This document shows, piece by piece, positions 25,125-62,763 of a stretch of DNA of 64,000 bases. Location of the stretch: NCBI GenBank assembly GCA_903642325.1, contig CAHJWM010000021.1:1-64000 (forward strand). The letters are read 5' to 3'. This stretch comes from Myxococcales bacterium (GTDB lineage: Bacteria > Myxococcota_A > Polyangia > Polyangiales > Polyangiaceae). The notes below the pieces were generated by a model. That model was not told the origin of the DNA. It saw only the letters and a program-made list of their open reading frames with translations, and made no database searches. The stretch's first letter is position 1. The number at the start of each line of letters is the position of its first letter. Both the position numbers and the translations under genes were made by a program.

Positions 25125-25892
25125 ATGCCGACGCACTCATTTTTCATAGCAAAAATCACCGCTGCATTGGCCTGCTCGCTCGCGCTCGTGGCCTGCGGGC
25201 CGCCGGATGAAGCCAGCCGAACCAAGGCCGGTCCGATCGTCGGGCCCTTCGTCGTTTCTGACTTTTTTACGCCCAGCGGACTCATGGGAGATGGCGCGGT
25301 GCCCGGAAGAGTGTCCGAGGGCATCGACGAAAATTGCAAGCAGCCGCGCCCCGCCGGCGCTCAAGGCGACTGTTATCATTTCTTGTACCATATCGGCGAC
25401 GTCAAATGGGCGGGAGCGTTCTGGGTTTACCCATCGAATAGTTGGGGCTCCGTACCCGGGCGGGCCCTCGCCCCACCGCTCGACCTCGGCCCCGACGGGA
25501 TGGGCGGCGAGCTGCATGGCTACAAGCGGGTCAGGTTCTGGGCGGCCGTGGACGTGATGCCAACCCCGCCGATCCTGCACTATTTCGTCGGCGGCATTGA
25601 CGGCACGGTTGCCAGTCCCCCGCGACCGTACGCCGACAAAGGTTGCCAGATTTTCCCCGCCGATCCCACTGACCCTACCTCCATGCGCCAGGTGTTTTGC
25701 GGTACTGGGTTCAGGGAAGGCGACGCGGGAAACAGCTACCTCACCGGGCAGTGGCAGCAGTTTTCTATCCCGCTCGATCGCTGGGGCCTCACTTCCGTCA
25801 TTGGCGCGTTCGGCTTCTCGATCAATGACACGGAGAACCCCGGGCAAACGCTATCTATCTATATCGACGACATTGTATGGGATGCTCAATGA
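25125..25892 (+). CDS. Surface lipoprotein, probable carbohydrate-binding beta-sandwich
   Basis: A 255-residue lipoprotein. The signal KITAALACSLALVACG contains the lipobox LVAC (cysteine ~24). The mature domain shows the pattern of a carbohydrate-binding or jelly-roll module: FWVYPSNSWGSVPG, GYKRVRFWAAVD, QWQQFSIPLDRWGL and a terminal LSIYIDDIVWDAQ. The aromatic residues could stack against sugar. It is the first gene of a three-gene run with an outer-membrane protein and a GH81 glucanase, so a glucan-capture role is the best guess. No family name can be given with confidence. Confidence 0.75.
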   Translation: MPTHSFFIAKITAALACSLALVACGPPDEASRTKAGPIVGPFVVSDFFTPSGLMGDGAVPGRVSEGIDENCKQPRPAGAQGDCYHFLYHIGDVKWAGAFWVYPSNSWGSVPGRALAPPLDLGPDGMGGELHGYKRVRFWAAVDVMPTPPILHYFVGGIDGTVASPPRPYADKGCQIFPADPTDPTSMRQVFCGTGFREGDAGNSYLTGQWQQFSIPLDRWGLTSVIGAFGFSINDTENPGQTLSIYIDDIVWDAQ

Positions 25893-25958
25893 GACGCATG
25901 GACAAGCGCGGGGAACTGGCTGCGGTTCGGGCCGACGATCTCGAGTGGGAGTGAACGC

Positions 25959-27812
25959 GTGACCAAGCTTTCTCGTGTCGTGCGGGGTGTTTGCCTCGCT
26001 CTGACGATCAGCGGACTATCTTCGGCCAAAAGCCCAGAGGACCGCGGCCCCGAAATCAACCCGTACGAGTGCTTGGGTCGCTACGAGGCAGCCACTGGCA
26101 ATCGAAGCATGGCGCAGGTGCGCGCAGAGCTCGACAAGCGATTGCATCCACTGTTCGAAGGCGACGAACCGCACACGGTCAAGGCGATGAAGCTCTGCGT
26201 CGTGGCGATGCTCGAGAGCCGACTGGGTGACGATCACGCGGCCGAGCACTACGCGGCCGCCGTCGCCGAGGCCCCGGACGAGCCGGGTTACGAGCTCTGG
26301 TATGCCCGGCTTTACGCGAACTTCCGCGGCGCCCGTGGGATCGTCGTGGAGAAGGCCGAGGACCACTTTTACAAGGCGCTCGAGAAAATCGACGCGCTCA
26401 AAGCGGATGGCAAACTTCGCGATTATCATAAGGTCGTCGAGGAGTGGGTCCACAAAGGGCTGCTCGTTACTTATCAAGAGGACGGGCTTCAGCTCCTGCC
26501 GTGGAAGGGGTTCCCACAGCACGGTTACGCGGGTCACGACGCGCCGGGCGTGGCGCTGATGGCGCAGTTATCCGTGTCCAAGGATACGCGGGATCTCTTC
26601 CGAAATAACGAGATGCGGCTCTTCACGGGCGAGCTGATGTTCGCCAATGGCCCGTACCGCGCGGCCGGGGTCCTGACCAAGTCACAGATCTACGATATCG
26701 TGCGTTCGCCTCTGCGCGTTCGGCACGAAGAGCGGCTACGCATCCGGCAGAATTTGCTGGGCGCATTCGACGTCTCTTTCGCGCAAGAGAAAATGAACAA
26801 CGGGCAGATCAGCACTTACTACCTGCCCCCGCCGGCCCAGCCCTTTACGGATGTCACCGTGAGGGAGATCGGCTTTGGGTACGAGCGCGTGGTCCCGCTT
26901 TACCCGCTCTTCGACCTCAAGCTCGCGGGCGGCGTGAAGAACATCGACCGCCAAGGCGTGGTCGAGTTTCATCCGGAACGGCACGAGCGGTTTTGGCTAT
27001 ATGAGGCTCACCCGAGCTTCTCGCGCTTCGTGGGGGCCGACAAGATTACCCTCGACTTGGTCTACGTCTACATGAACGTCACGGACGTCGGCTTTGGGGT
27101 GAGCTCGGACGCGCTTCGCTCGAAGTATATTCGCGCGGCTAACCTCGAGTACGCTCTGTACACTCCGCTCGTGCTGCCGGAATTCAGGAGTGGCGAGCTG
27201 GGAATGCACCGGACTCCGACGCGCGGCTGGTACTTCAACGCCGGTGTCGCGGACGACGATGACGTGTACGGCACCCGCACCGTTCGCCGTCATGACTTTT
27301 ACGCGGGCACGCGCTTCGAGGGCGCTGGCAACTACGATCTTTCACTACAAGGCACTTACTCGACCTCGAATTTGACCGAGCTCGACTTGAATACGGGCCG
27401 CTCACTGGACGACCCCGGCGGCACCCTCAAGTCGACGAGCTTTCGTACCACAGCGATCGTTCAACGGCGCATCATCAACCCGGATGCCATCCCCGGCATC
27501 AACGGATCGTTCATGGATGTCGACATGCTGAACCTCGTGATTCCGGCGACCTGGGACAAGGGCCTGAGTGGAACGGCCTGCGACGTTGCCAACATCGGTT
27601 ACGACACGGGCTACACATCGGCCGCCGATTGTTACAAGACTTACGAAAATATCCGCGTAGGCGCGGAACTTTGGGCAAAGTTTTTCGGCACCGGTTTTGG
27701 CGGGCCAGCGCTGCTCACGACCCTCGGCTATGACTATCAGTACTTCTACAACATCAAAAAGGCAGTCAACGAGGTTCACCTGAACCTGCGGATGGGCTGG
27801 GGCAGGCTATGA
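25959..27812 (+). CDS. Outer-membrane protein with TPR-like periplasmic region (glucan locus)
   Basis: A 617-residue protein. It has a signal sequence (about residues 1-24) and then a helical, TPR-like region (about 45-170: HTVKAMKLCVVAMLESRLGD, HAAEHYAAAVAEAPDEPGYEL). A long C-terminal part of ~400 residues is rich in alternating hydrophobic/aromatic segments and Tyr, consistent with a beta barrel (FDLKLAGGVKNIDRQGVVEF, YDLSLQGTYSTSNLTELDL). Start GTG at 25959 has GGGAG upstream. The stop overlaps the GH81 start (ATGA, 27809-27812). It may be the outer-membrane channel or scaffold of a glucan-uptake system; it is not SusC- or SusD-like. Confidence 0.7.
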   Translation: MTKLSRVVRGVCLALTISGLSSAKSPEDRGPEINPYECLGRYEAATGNRSMAQVRAELDKRLHPLFEGDEPHTVKAMKLCVVAMLESRLGDDHAAEHYAAAVAEAPDEPGYELWYARLYANFRGARGIVVEKAEDHFYKALEKIDALKADGKLRDYHKVVEEWVHKGLLVTYQEDGLQLLPWKGFPQHGYAGHDAPGVALMAQLSVSKDTRDLFRNNEMRLFTGELMFANGPYRAAGVLTKSQIYDIVRSPLRVRHEERLRIRQNLLGAFDVSFAQEKMNNGQISTYYLPPPAQPFTDVTVREIGFGYERVVPLYPLFDLKLAGGVKNIDRQGVVEFHPERHERFWLYEAHPSFSRFVGADKITLDLVYVYMNVTDVGFGVSSDALRSKYIRAANLEYALYTPLVLPEFRSGELGMHRTPTRGWYFNAGVADDDDVYGTRTVRRHDFYAGTRFEGAGNYDLSLQGTYSTSNLTELDLNTGRSLDDPGGTLKSTSFRTTAIVQRRIINPDAIPGINGSFMDVDMLNLVIPATWDKGLSGTACDVANIGYDTGYTSAADCYKTYENIRVGAELWAKFFGTGFGGPALLTTLGYDYQYFYNIKKAVNEVHLNLRMGWGRL

Positions 27813-30136
27813 GCGCGCGTTGGGGCTCGTTGTTGTTGGCAGTCACGCTCGCGGGCTGTGGCGCAGGAACTATCGAGCCTGCGCCGTTACCGCAACATCC
27901 GCCCGGCCAAGCCAAGAAGGCGGGGGCCGGGTTTTTGACCAGCACCGTCCCCGACGACGAGCGGGTCGCCGTCAGTGAACAGGGCAAGCGAGCCCATCCC
28001 AAGGTCACGAGCGATTTTAGCGGCGTCGTGCGCAGCAACGGTTGGTGGTCCTCGTTGATCTGGCAATACGATGAAAAAAACCCGTATTCGGAAAACTTGT
28101 ATGCGCACCCGCTCGTCGCGCGCGCATACAAGGATGGCTTGGGCCTCTCGTATCCGGACCGCGCAAAGGTCGAAGCTCGACAGTATATGTACTCTTATGC
28201 CGAGGACTTGCGCGTCGGCTTGAACGGGCTCGCGTCACCGGACACTCGCGTGGCTGGCTATTCGGACTGGGCGGTTACTGCCGAATGGTCGGGCGAGAGC
28301 GCGCTCCGTGCGACCCTCGGTCATGGCTTGCCCTTCGTGTATTTCACGAAAACCGGGCCCGCCAGCGTCGTCATTCGCGCGCCGCAATCGAGCTCGTTGG
28401 AAGTTTGGCACGACGGCGGCGAGGCCTTGGGTATCACCATCGCTGGCCACAACTACGGCTTATTTGGACCGAGCAAGAGCCACTGGCAAAAGAAGGGAGC
28501 GACGCTGGAAAGCGATCTTGGCGGTAAGGCCTACTTCTCCGTTGCGGTTCTACCCAGCAAAAGCGACGACGTCTTGGAACGTTTTCGTAAGCACGCCTAC
28601 GCTTTCGTGACCGACACGAGGATCACGTACACCTACGACGAGCCGAGCGCGACGCTATCGACCACCTTCGCGCTCGCGACGCGCCAGATGGACGACCAAA
28701 AGGGACTGTCGCAGGACCCCATCGTCGCTCTCTACCCGCACCTTTGGAAGCACGCGACCAGCCTCTCGTACACTCAGGACACGTACGCGTCGCCTCGCGG
28801 CGTCTTGAAAGTCGCCGAGACCAGTCAATTTGCCACGCAGTTCAAGTTCGGCGGGATTCTGCCGGCGTTGCCCAGCATTCCGGGGGCCGATATGGGGTCC
28901 GTGCCGCGCTATTTGAAAGAGGTCGCGAACGCGAGCGACTTATTTCCAAAGGGCTTCGGCCCACGCCCGACGCGCGACTCGTACTGGGCCGGAAAGTCAT
29001 TGGCTCGGAATGCGAACATGCTCGAAATCGCCGAACAGCTCGGCTTGAATGACGAGCGCGAGCGACTGCTCATCGGCTTGGAGAACGAGCTGATAGACTG
29101 GTTCGACGGGGCGATGCCGCGCGCATTCCACTTCGACAAAGAGTGGCACAGTGTGGTCGCCTTTCCGTCGAGCTATGGCTCTGCCGATGAGCTCAACGAT
29201 CACCACTTTCATTACGGTTATTTCATCGGCGCGGCCGCGACGGTCGCGAATCGCGATCCCAAGTGGGCCAAGGAGTTTGCCCCATTCGTAGATGTATTGG
29301 TCAAAGACGTCGCCAATTGGGATCGCGCAGACACGCGCTACCCGTATCTGCGCCACATGGACGTTTATGCTGGCCATTCCTGGGCAAACGGTCCGGAGCA
29401 TTTCGACGCCGGAAATAACCAGGAAGCGTCTTCCGAAGACACCAACTGCTCGTCGGCGATCATCCTCTGGGGCGCAGCCACCGGGCGCAAAGAGATTCGA
29501 GACCTGGGCATCTTCCTGCTCGTCAACCAGATCGCGGCGGCTGAGCAGTACTGGTTCAACATCGACCAGGAAAATTTCCCGAAAGGTTTCGAGCACCGCG
29601 CCGCCGGCATGGTTTGGGGCGCTGGCGCCAAGTACGATACCTGGTTCGACCGCGATCCGGCGTTGATTCACGGCATCAACTACTTGCCGTTCAGTGGGTC
29701 CTCACTTTACCTCGGGCGTCACCCCAAATACGTGCAAGCGGCATTCGACGAAATCAACACCGAAAGCCGCGGCAGCATGACGGCCTGGCGCGACTACATG
29801 CTCATGTACCTCGCGCTGACCGCGCCGGAAAAGGCCCGCAAAATGTTCGATGACGACCCTTACTTCGAGCCTGAGTTCGGCAACACGCTCGCCATGACCT
29901 ATGACTGGATTGCCAAGCTCGCCGCCATCAACGGTCACGTAGATACGAGCGTGTCGGCCGATTCCCCGCTGTACGCGGTATTCCGGGGGGGCGGCGCGCG
30001 CGTCTACCTCGCCTACAATGCCACCAATGACAAGCTGACGGTGCGCTTTTCCGATGGTGCGCAGTTGAAGCTTGCGGCGCACGCATATGGCTTCTTGAAG
30101 AAGAACACTACGACCATCAGCAACGACGAGAACTGA
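27809..30136 (+). CDS. Endo-1,3-beta-glucanase lipoprotein, GH81
   Basis: A 775-residue enzyme with a lipoprotein signal (LLLAVTLAGCG, Cys17). The catalytic domain carries GH81 landmarks: SNGWWSSLIWQYD near the N-terminus, NDHHFHYGYFIG (catalytic Asp region), and NNQEASSEDTNCSSAIILWG (catalytic Glu region). The C-terminal half continues with FNIDQENFPKGFEHRAAGMVWG and FSGSSLYLGRHPKY. GH81 enzymes hydrolyse internal beta-1,3-glucan bonds as in laminarin and fungal cell walls. Its start overlaps the stop of the outer-membrane protein gene (ATGA), giving translational coupling. A perfect stem-loop terminator follows at 30161-30196. Confidence 0.94.
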   Translation: MSARWGSLLLAVTLAGCGAGTIEPAPLPQHPPGQAKKAGAGFLTSTVPDDERVAVSEQGKRAHPKVTSDFSGVVRSNGWWSSLIWQYDEKNPYSENLYAHPLVARAYKDGLGLSYPDRAKVEARQYMYSYAEDLRVGLNGLASPDTRVAGYSDWAVTAEWSGESALRATLGHGLPFVYFTKTGPASVVIRAPQSSSLEVWHDGGEALGITIAGHNYGLFGPSKSHWQKKGATLESDLGGKAYFSVAVLPSKSDDVLERFRKHAYAFVTDTRITYTYDEPSATLSTTFALATRQMDDQKGLSQDPIVALYPHLWKHATSLSYTQDTYASPRGVLKVAETSQFATQFKFGGILPALPSIPGADMGSVPRYLKEVANASDLFPKGFGPRPTRDSYWAGKSLARNANMLEIAEQLGLNDERERLLIGLENELIDWFDGAMPRAFHFDKEWHSVVAFPSSYGSADELNDHHFHYGYFIGAAATVANRDPKWAKEFAPFVDVLVKDVANWDRADTRYPYLRHMDVYAGHSWANGPEHFDAGNNQEASSEDTNCSSAIILWGAATGRKEIRDLGIFLLVNQIAAAEQYWFNIDQENFPKGFEHRAAGMVWGAGAKYDTWFDRDPALIHGINYLPFSGSSLYLGRHPKYVQAAFDEINTESRGSMTAWRDYMLMYLALTAPEKARKMFDDDPYFEPEFGNTLAMTYDWIAKLAAINGHVDTSVSADSPLYAVFRGGGARVYLAYNATNDKLTVRFSDGAQLKLAAHAYGFLKKNTTTISNDEN

Positions 30137-30160
30137 CGAAGCCCGCGTCGGTCAGACACG

Positions 30161-30197
30161 AAAACGCCGGATCATCATGCGATGATCCGGCGTTTTT
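30161..30197. terminator. Bidirectional Rho-independent terminator, perfect 16-bp stem
   Basis: AAAACGCCGGATCATC (30161-30176) is followed by a 4-base loop and its exact reverse complement (30181-30196). The stem is flanked by A-rich sequence on the left and a T-run on the right, so it can terminate both the GH81 transcript and the convergent GH16 transcript that ends at 30234. Confidence 0.92.
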
Positions 30198-30233
30198 CGT
30201 CAGTGCCACGCTACGCGCTGGCTGGAGCCGCCC

Positions 30234-31574
30234 TCACTTGAGGTAAGGCGTCTCTTTCGGGTTGTTTTGCGCCGCTACGGTGTAGTCGTTGTTGGTTTTG
30301 TTGAGGCAGGCGGGAGTCGGCGAGCACGGGTACGTTTCGCCGTTGAGCTTGTAGAAGTGGAAGTAGTCGTAGGACGACGTCATCGGATACACATTCTTCG
30401 TCGGGTCGCCAAAGGCCGCGGAACTCGCGAACACCCACAAGTTCATCATGATCTTGGCGGAAAGATTGGGAATGGCCGGTTGAGCAGCGGGCCCGTGCGT
30501 GTAAACAGGAGTTGGGTTGTTATCGACGTACCAAGTGATGCCCGTCGACGTCCAATTGAATGCGTAAATGTGCTCAGTGGCGATGTTGAGGCCGGGCACC
30601 GGGATCGATTGAGCATCACCACCCGGGTACCCCGTGGCGCCATTCGGAGCATTGACGGTGTTGATGTTCAGCTTCCCTGCTTGGTTGGGCTCGAGCTCCG
30701 CGTCGATTTCGTTCCATGCGATGTTAGTCGGAGTGCGAAACACGAACATCGTGGATAGGAAGTTGCCTACCGTCGTACTGGGCGCCGTGTACTTCACCTC
30801 GTACCGCCCGTACCGGTAATTGTTGTATTTGGTTCGGAACTCACCGCTCGTGACGCCGGTGCCCGGGCGAGCCCTTGGAATAGGCTGGTTGCTATATGAT
30901 TCTGCGTACGACGTGCGGGGCGGGTAACAGCTAGTGTTGTTATTTGCAGGCGGGCACGTCGACTTTGCGGCAATGATCATGTGACCGTTCGCGAAGGTGA
31001 TGTTGCCCTCGGCGAAGTTGGTCTGGCCGTCATTGGGGATGCCGTCCGACCAAGTGAACACCGGATCGGCATTGAGGTCGACCGCGGTCGGAAAATCTTC
31101 GACGAGCGCCAACGTGAAGCCGTCGTAGGTCGGGTAAGTGACGCCGGAGCTGCAGTGACCGTCGACCTTGACGTTGTTGACGGTTGGGCAAGCCACTTCC
31201 GTTTCGCCTCCGGCCGGGGGGGCACCACCACCCGTGCCAGCGGCGCCGCCCACCGGTGCGCCGCCGCCCGTGGTCGAGCCGCCCGTGGTCGAGCCGCCCG
31301 TGGCCGTACCGCCCGTGGTCATACCGCCCGTGTTCGTGGACGTGCCGCCCGTTGCCGTGCCGCCCGCGGGTGCGCCGCCCGAGTCCGTGCCGCCCGTGGC
31401 CGTACCGCCCCCGGTCGGAGTCCCGGTTGCCCCGCCGCCTGCGGCGGCCGAGCCAGCGGCGCCGCTCGGAACGAAGCTGTTGCCGTCGCCGGGGTCACTG
31501 CTGGAACACCCAGCCAAGTAGGACAGCGTCAGGCCCGTAAGCCCGATCGCGGTTGCGCTTGTCCAGACCTTCAT
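30234..31574 (-). CDS. GH16-family glucanase-like lipoprotein with Gly/Thr-rich linker
   Basis: A 446-residue lipoprotein: signal with lipobox LAGC (Cys23), then a ~95-residue Gly/Thr/Ala linker built of short repeats (~residues 30-125), then a GH16-type concanavalin-like domain. The active-site strand is WNEIDAELE, with Glu289, Asp291 and Glu293 in the E-x-D-x-E order. EFRTKYNNYRYGRYEVKY and SYDYFHFYKL frame the fold. GH16 enzymes act on beta-1,3/1,4-glucans, agar or carrageenan. The neighbouring GH81 suggests a beta-1,3-glucan here. The ATG at 31574 has AAGGAAG upstream; a longer frame to 31763 is discarded. Confidence 0.9.
   Translation of the reverse strand: MKVWTSATAIGLTGLTLSYLAGCSSSDPGDGNSFVPSGAAGSAAAGGGATGTPTGGGTATGGTDSGGAPAGGTATGGTSTNTGGMTTGGTATGGSTTGGSTTGGGAPVGGAAGTGGGAPPAGGETEVACPTVNNVKVDGHCSSGVTYPTYDGFTLALVEDFPTAVDLNADPVFTWSDGIPNDGQTNFAEGNITFANGHMIIAAKSTCPPANNNTSCYPPRTSYAESYSNQPIPRARPGTGVTSGEFRTKYNNYRYGRYEVKYTAPSTTVGNFLSTMFVFRTPTNIAWNEIDAELEPNQAGKLNINTVNAPNGATGYPGGDAQSIPVPGLNIATEHIYAFNWTSTGITWYVDNNPTPVYTHGPAAQPAIPNLSAKIMMNLWVFASSAAFGDPTKNVYPMTSSYDYFHFYKLNGETYPCSPTPACLNKTNNDYTVAAQNNPKETPYLK
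31263..31418. repeat. 15-bp tandem repeat inside GH16 linker
   Basis: About ten tandem units, mostly 15 bp, of the type GCCGCCCGTGGTCGA (+ strand), one expanded to 21 bp. The first two units are identical. On the coding strand they give five-residue units of T-G-G type. The repeats encode the flexible linker and may vary in number between strains. Confidence 0.85.
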
Positions 31575-61341: not shown

Positions 61342-62763
61342 TCATGGGCCACAGGCCACGTCGAGCTTTCCATCCACGCCGGTGCACATGGCGGGGCGAC
61401 TGTCCGGCAACGGATCTTTCGCGTTGTTTTTTGCGTACTGGAGGTCGGACGGCGTCAAGCAGCTGCGCGTCTTGAGATCCGCGCAAGGATAAGTGGTCTC
61501 GTTGTTCCAGCGGTAGTAGCGGAACCAATCGTACTCTCCGTGGATCGGATATGCGTTGCCAGCCGGATCACCGCCGCCCAAATCGCGGTTGCCGAAGACC
61601 CACATGTTCATGATGATCTTCGTCGACTCTTTGGGGATGACCAGGCCATTTTTACCCTGGCCGTCCAACTTTACGCGCACCAGCTGGCCATCGATGAACC
61701 ACTTGACCGAGGTGGGCAGCCATTCGAACGCGTAAGTGTGGAAGTCCGAGCTGGTGCTGAAGCCCGTCGGTAAGGCGGAGCCACCATTGCCGCCGTACGG
61801 ATATGACCTCGTCGAATCCTCGATCCCACCGTTCCAGACGCGGGTGCCTGGAGGCGCAACGATGATGTTGGAAATGAAATCCGTCTGCGGCGCCGCCGTG
61901 AGCTCGATGTCGATTTCTCGCCACAACAGGTAAGCTGGCGCGCGGTACGCGAACAGGGTGTGCAGGAAATTGTTGTTGGCGCCCGCCGGGGACTTCATGC
62001 GCACTTCGTAGCGGCCGTAGCGGAATTCATTGTAAATGCTGCGAAACTCTGCGGCGCTGACCGGCTTGTCTGCGACGTTGTCGGCGGCCGAGAATGAATA
62101 GCCGCCTGCCACCGGTTCATTGGTGATGGCGAGCACCATGTGGCCGCTCTCGAACGCGATGTTCTTCTCGACCATGTGGGTCTGCCCGTCGAAGAGCGCG
62201 CCGTCACCCCAGGTCCAAAACGGATCGCGATTGAGATCGATGGGCGCGTTGAACTCTTCGATCAGGTACGGCTTGAAACCGTCGTATACCGGGTAGGCGA
62301 TGTTGGGGTCGGGGTGGCCGTAGATTCCGCGGCTATCTGGAACCGCCGGCAGTAGGCCGGCGCCACCTGTCGTGCCGGCGATGCCGCCGATGCCAGCAGC
62401 GCCGCCGCTGCCGCCCTTGCCGCCCGCGCCACCTGTGCCACCGGTCCCGCCCTTACCGCCCGCGCCCGTGACGCCGCCTGCCGAGCCTCCACCACTGCCG
62501 GCCGTGGTGCCGGCGCCACCGGCACTCCCGGATTCTCCGCCCGCGCCCGCGCCGATGGTTCCACCGCTGCCGGCTGTCCCTGGGCCTCCGCTGCCGGCAG
62601 TGAGGCTTCCACCCGCGGATGCGCTCGTGGCACCGCCCCCGGATACCCCTGCCGTGGCGCCGGCCCCCCCGATATCACCTTGAGCCGGCGTTGAGCCTGC
62701 GCAGGCGGCCAGGCCGGCAAGAGCGAGGCAGGACAAGGAAAGTACCGAAATCGGGGGCTGCAT
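61342..62763 (-). CDS. GH16-family glucanase-like lipoprotein, second copy
   Basis: A 473-residue lipoprotein. Signal with lipobox LAAC (Cys21), a ~115-residue Gly/Ala/Ser/Thr linker (~25-140, coded by degenerate GGx repeats), then a GH16 domain. The active-site strand is WREIDIELT, with Glu283, Asp285 and Glu287. EFRSIYNEFRYGRYEVRMKS matches the 30234 paralogue, as do the YDGF and DLNRDP motifs. The ATG at 62763 has AGGAG six bases upstream. A glucanase role is inferred from the fold. The two enzymes are paralogues with unlike linkers, so the substrate range may differ. Confidence 0.9.
   Translation of the reverse strand: MQPPISVLSLSCLALAGLAACAGSTPAQGDIGGAGATAGVSGGGATSASAGGSLTAGSGGPGTAGSGGTIGAGAGGESGSAGGAGTTAGSGGGSAGGVTGAGGKGGTGGTGGAGGKGGSGGAAGIGGIAGTTGGAGLLPAVPDSRGIYGHPDPNIAYPVYDGFKPYLIEEFNAPIDLNRDPFWTWGDGALFDGQTHMVEKNIAFESGHMVLAITNEPVAGGYSFSAADNVADKPVSAAEFRSIYNEFRYGRYEVRMKSPAGANNNFLHTLFAYRAPAYLLWREIDIELTAAPQTDFISNIIVAPPGTRVWNGGIEDSTRSYPYGGNGGSALPTGFSTSSDFHTYAFEWLPTSVKWFIDGQLVRVKLDGQGKNGLVIPKESTKIIMNMWVFGNRDLGGGDPAGNAYPIHGEYDWFRYYRWNNETTYPCADLKTRSCLTPSDLQYAKNNAKDPLPDSRPAMCTGVDGKLDVACGP

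Follow-up and report, generated by a model that had tools for sequence, protein, structure and literature searches.

Positions 25125 to 31574 of the window, by which we mean the whole stretch of 64,000 nucleotides that was analysed, hold four genes and one hairpin-forming stretch, arranged as follows.

25125-25892, plus strand: gene A, an open reading frame for a lipoprotein (lipobox LVAC) of a putative CBM4-like beta-sandwich family, a predicted glucan binder
25959-27812, plus strand: gene B, an open reading frame for a protein with a signal peptide, a TPR-like N-terminal domain and a probable outer-membrane beta-barrel
27809-30136, plus strand: gene C, a predicted GH81 endo-beta-1,3-glucanase lipoprotein (PF17652, match to 6fop, lipobox LAGC)
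30137-30236, no assigned strand: a stretch folding into a hairpin of 17 pairs with a T-run, terminator-like on both strands
30234-31574, minus strand: gene D, a predicted GH16 lipoprotein, lichenase-like (EIDAE; PF00722, lipobox LAGC)

An earlier, sequence-only reading of this DNA had placed A, B and the GH81 lipoprotein in one run, with its last pair overlapping by ATGA and the GH16 lipoprotein convergent to it, and an open reading frame check found the coordinates given for all four genes to be correct and the arrangement to be as described. B was read from a GTG start codon 66 bases after A, with GGGAG ahead of it, and its end is joined to the GH81 start by the ATGA overlap. Between the convergent GH81 and D genes, and flanked by A and T runs, the hairpin stretch had a folding energy of -47.1 kcal/mol (z -3.9), with none of 200 shuffled sequences equally stable, and its simplest reading is as a terminator that serves both strands; it was absent from the output of a consensus terminator scan, and the promoter and terminator scans together gave a yield no higher than in shuffles. 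Because this hairpin intervenes, D is a transcription unit separate from the A-B-GH81 run. Upstream of the run Pfam recognised a two-component pair, a Metal_resist protein and a helix-hairpin-helix protein, and downstream a UvrA-like gene was recognised by eye; within the run in the window, open reading frames and Pfam gave no transporter or regulator gene.

Gene C was recognised by Pfam as GH81 (PF17652 at 200.6 bits, above cut-off), and its product aligned over its full length with two PDB entries, 6fop (E 3.5e-156), which we take to be CtLam81A, and 5t49. It holds the motifs NDHHFHYG and NNQEASSE, to which we ascribe a catalytic role, and with both the catalytic domain and the conserved acid motifs of the family its product is predicted to be a GH81 enzyme. 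A second GH81 gene lies outside the window in the same genome (locus L054, contig C66). D was likewise assigned to GH16 by a Glyco_hydro_16 domain (PF00722 at 54.9 bits, above cut-off) together with an ExDx(x)E motif, which reads EIDAE. Its best PDB match was a Bacillus 1,3-1,4-beta-glucanase, or lichenase (3o5s, E 3e-10), it scored 70 bits against the NCBIfam model BglS (cut-off 300), and by these matches it looks lichenase-like, not laminarinase-type; we would expect it to act preferentially on mixed-linkage glucan. GH81 and GH16 had been described as cutting laminarin-type or fungal beta-glucan; the family of GH81 is clear, and for D, with lichenases as its nearest relatives, the laminarin-type label found no support. 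A second GH16 lipoprotein, with a Gly/Ser-rich linker and an EIDIE motif, is encoded in the window at 61342-62763 on the minus strand and is 36% identical to D.

Searches for B returned very few genomes. At family level (108 genomes) three matches were obtained, in the window genome (G000), in G575 and in G258; at class level (289 genomes) there were again three, in the window genome, in G258 and as a short TPR match in G199; and a profile search at phylum level (377 genomes) gave two, in the window genome and the same G199 match. Scanning GTDB r220 contigs with two peptide patterns from B gave two loci, L068 and L069, of which L068 is the G575 locus contig (16 of 16 sampled 40-mers in common) and L069 the G258 contig. 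B was present in three genomes, those of the window, its congener G575 and G258 of another genus; among the eight listed genomes of the window's genus, G000 and G575 carried it and G186, G210, G241, G572, G573 and G574 did not.

The sequence-only reading had proposed looking for the A and B families beside GH81 and GH16 genes elsewhere, and when this was done both families were found to go with glycan genes, with A directly upstream of B and GH81 nearby in all three genomes that have B. The order is A-B-GH81 in the window and in G258, and GH81-ThuA-A-B in L068; as it differs in one of the three genomes, gene content is what is conserved. Since the run recurs in other genomes, the A+B+GH81 unit is real and beyond chance. 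G258 has the unit divided between contigs C205 and C236, which break off at nearly the same point of B, no more than about 6 residues apart (393 and 399 in window numbering), and we infer that these contigs are adjacent. There, after GH81, come a gluP-family MFS permease of the GluP glucose-transporter type (358 bits, cut-off 202.55) and a GH16, and divergent from A lie two further copies (A2 and A3), a GH2 and another GH16. In L068 a GH16-like gene approximately 6.5 kb upstream of A gave no ExDx(x)E motif; the GH16-like lipoprotein at L068:1605-2612, which lacks this motif and reads NQIVIE, is possibly a non-catalytic binder. Each of the three genomes has a GH16 no further than 10 kb from the unit, with types that differ. 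GH81 was found in 17 of the 289 class genomes, with full B matches in 2 of those; in most cases A and GH81 are present with no B, which is thus optional, and B was found only together with A and GH81.

Neither A nor B belongs to a recognised family, as had been claimed. A gave no match in Pfam or PHROGs and in NCBIfam only a sub-threshold LptM match on its signal peptide, and B was without a relative in Pfam, NCBIfam, PHROGs, the PDB (phmmer) or plasmids. For A, a profile of a 16-member family alignment (A5) matched the PDB entry 3jxs, a CBM4-2 module, with E 1.2e-4 at positions 123-211 (about 90 positions), among five distinct PDB sequences in all, the weakest at E 0.0069. We take 3jxs and 1k42 to be CBM4-2 of Rhodothermus Xyn10A; the PDB listing reads "Xylanase". 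Pfam run on the 16 members gave at most three weak single matches (CBM30 at 0.0046, HpiC1-like at 0.0054 and Lsr2 at 0.097), with a CBM4 match in none of the 16 at E 0.1, and an AlphaFold model of A from one sequence had a pLDDT of 36.

With a threshold of 1e-3 the A5 profile matched 24 of the 289 class genomes; at phylum level, where the threshold was 1e-10, it matched 10 of 207. Strong matches (E below 1e-20) fell at 29 places in 16 class genomes, some of them tandem copies and so not independent, and 13 of the 29 lay within 5 kb of a GH16, against 0.11 expected from genome sizes; counted by contig, A lay this close to a GH16 in 9 of 23. Weak matches (E 1e-4 to 1e-3) and G000:C123 (6.5e-9) were dropped before this count, and window A and the G258 copy A1, both just beyond 5 kb from a GH16, were counted as misses. 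Four proteins have an A domain fused to a GH2-type TIM barrel, one in G022, two in G264 (C515 and C592) and one in G451; those of G022 and G264:C515 were among the GH16 misses and that of G264:C592 among the GH16 matches. At L083:193-2010, L030, L028 and L120:3341-5095 a C-terminal A domain was observed on a TIM barrel that matches GH2 weakly, and these barrel partners are perhaps an undescribed glycoside hydrolase family. Fusions of A to starch-binding-type domains (G193) and to another C-terminal part (G249) suggest that the A family is possibly not limited to beta-glucan.

A was also found in other gene neighbourhoods. In G149, G152 and G165 it is followed by a ROK regulator, a GH16 and Dpp-type ABC permeases (ROK called by Pfam for L057, Dpp by eye), and the cluster of A, ROK/MarR regulator, GH16 and Dpp-type permeases, which three family f23 genomes carry at L057, L058 and L059, resembles a beta-glucan operon complete in itself. 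A copies in G412 stand beside an SBP_bac_5 transporter, with no GH16 motif seen in the 20 kb read. In the window's own genome (contig C26) an A paralogue at L053:7092-10552 adjoins a PD40 propeller lipoprotein that bears a C-x-x-C-H motif, and a GH16 is convergent there; in G046 (L056) a member of this propeller family again comes after an A gene. The propeller family is a second unlabelled partner of the A family, and haem binding by it is possible. At L114 (G423:C5) and L115 (G389:C88) A domains occur twice in open frames of about 1210-1220 amino acids. A is a widespread Myxococcota module that is unlabelled in Pfam, and on the CBM4 profile match, the GH16 linkage and the GH2-type fusions it is very probably a glucan-binding lipoprotein. 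Of the earlier proposal that the first two proteins of the run capture or move the glucan, the CBM4 profile match suits the capture part.

B begins like a signal peptide and continues with a helical, TPR-like part at residues ~75-170 and a C-terminal part of ~420 residues (~196-617). Its TPR-like region had been named from the sequence at the outset; Pfam finds no TPR in B itself, and the G199 match to residues 75-150 (E 1.1e-4) falls on a stretch that Pfam labels TPR_19, a hint that residues ~75-170 may be TPR-like. G199 was rejected as a source of a B relative, the match covering ~75 residues in a 1571-residue frame with Pfam TPRs, as were a match to B on contig C13 of the window genome (E 0.287) and the best PDB match of a four-row B profile, an enoyl-CoA hydratase (E 1.4). 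Strand alternation averaged over the alignment gave z 2.7 for the C-terminal part and -0.4 for the N-terminal part, with z 0.9 (sub-ranges -1.2 to 1.8) for a soluble control, the GH81 of the same genomes. On single sequences this measure separates barrels from soluble proteins uncleanly (LamB 1.8 against 1.7 for a GH2 control); the PgaA barrel gave 2.7 and FadL 3.9, and window B, at 1.5, overlapped the soluble controls, which reached 1.7. As a rule, outer-membrane proteins end in an alternating stretch with a terminal F, and B of G258 ends in this way (VLRADLGMGF), whereas window B ends MGWGRL. An AlphaFold model of B built on three sequences, of which two were partial, had a pLDDT of 31 (shallow alignment). 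These data are suggestive, and point to a C-terminal part that is probably an outer-membrane beta-barrel.

We consider it likely that the locus is a beta-glucan degradation unit. In the mechanism that we propose, A, as a lipid-anchored CBM4-like module, would hold beta-1,3-glucan at the cell surface and the GH81 lipoprotein would cut the held glucan internally. B, with an outer-membrane barrel and a periplasmic TPR-like domain, would let the oligosaccharides produced in this way through the outer membrane, and GH16 (lichenase-like in the window), along with the GH2 and GluP-type permease in G258, would complete glucan use. To this full mechanism, surface beta-1,3-glucan utilisation with B as the importer, we give an even chance; we know of no sugar porin with a TPR domain, which counts against B as an importer.

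Among the genes of the proposed unit, D has the weakest case for membership, because its PDB relatives are lichenases and its motif is EIDAE, unlike the EVDIME and EIDIME of the G258 GH16s (motifs that we take to be laminarinase-type), and because the window holds the second, 36%-identical GH16. That A, B and GH81 form the unit and D is present by chance is a possibility that we take seriously without favouring it: D lies convergent beyond the hairpin, its paralogue is 30 kb away and its lichenase-like character sets it apart from the G258 enzymes, whereas the recurrence of a GH16 within 10 kb of the unit in every genome with B speaks for membership, with the caveat that these GH16s are of different types and that one, in L068, gave no ExDx(x)E motif.

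The role of B admits several other readings. PgaA and BcsC are built of a TPR part followed by a barrel, the order proposed for B, and in E. coli a glycoside hydrolase is likewise encoded in the bcs and pga operons (bcsZ and pgaB), so that B might export a polysaccharide while the glucanases shorten beta-glucan made by the cell itself. This is highly improbable, as the TPR part of B is much shorter, no synthase genes were seen at the window locus, no glycosyltransferase was found among the scanned window neighbours or, on reading by eye, in parts of the sister loci, and G258 has a sugar permease and degradative GH2 and GH16 genes instead. A barrel enzyme like GluM of Corallococcus is also very unlikely: GluM is reported to be an outer-membrane beta-barrel glucanase used against fungi, and so is a myxobacterial protein of the outer membrane with a link to the glucan of fungi, with no mention of a TPR (PMC10800785), whereas B has a TPR-like part. 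An unlikely alternative is a Slam-like (DUF560/PF04575) B, whose periplasmic TPR and membrane barrel would carry the lipoproteins A and GH81 to the outside of the outer membrane, with glucan fragments entering otherwise. As reported, Slam has an N-terminal TPR and a C-terminal 14-strand barrel, 185 of 353 homologues adjoin lipoprotein genes, and the substrates have a common eight-stranded barrel domain (PMC5449769). B has the same domain order and its constant neighbours A and GH81 are both lipoproteins by their lipoboxes, but PF04575 was found neither in B and its homologues nor anywhere in G000, the eight-stranded domain was not seen in A or GH81, and the majority of A and GH81 genes are found in the absence of B. 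Somewhat unlikely, and put forward tentatively, is that B represents a new family of Myxococcota outer-membrane machine, unrelated in sequence to Slam and SusC, that displays or couples glucan-binding and GH81 lipoproteins; if true, this would give a capture-cut-import complex for fungal or algal beta-glucan that is independent of SusCD.

Under the proposed surface-utilisation mechanism, the gene set probably enables a myxobacterium-like soil bacterium to bind fungal or algal beta-glucan at the cell surface, cleave it and take it up. How Gram-negative bacteria outside the Bacteroidota hold and import large glycans, and get lipoproteins to the outer surface, is poorly known, and the unit offers a small testable set, made up of a binder family found across Myxococcota and a probable outer-membrane protein that is rare. 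The unit would, in addition, serve as a marker of feeding on beta-1,3-glucan, which is of interest for myxobacteria that eat fungi. Among the matches listed in literature searches on myxobacterial glucanases and polysaccharide utilisation loci (PULs), which covered titles and the starts of abstracts and included few subscription papers, the A+B+GH81 unit was not described.

Compared with known systems, the A-family profile aligns distantly with the CBM4-2 module of Rhodothermus Xyn10A, and A differs from it as a lone, lipid-anchored module whose conserved N-terminal half lies outside the match. The window GH81 resembles CtLam81A and BH0236 in its full-length matches to 6fop and 5t49, and differs as a lipoprotein without a recognised appended CBM. 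The locus had been described as lacking SusC and SusD, and the searches agreed as far as they reached: SusD (PF07980) was found in neither of the two genomes searched (G000 and G258), with a positive Bacteroides control, and no SusC-type TonB-dependent receptor was matched by Pfam among the eight locus and neighbour proteins. With the SusC/SusD PULs of Bacteroidota the locus has in common a predicted surface-type lipoprotein binder, an endo-glucanase lipoprotein and a probable outer-membrane protein, and G258 adds a GH2 and a sugar permease in the same cluster; the binder A and the outer-membrane protein B of the window are not recognisable relatives by sequence, and the locus probably uses these two database-unrecognised families instead of the Bacteroidota machinery. 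It is PUL-like in function and not a PUL member.
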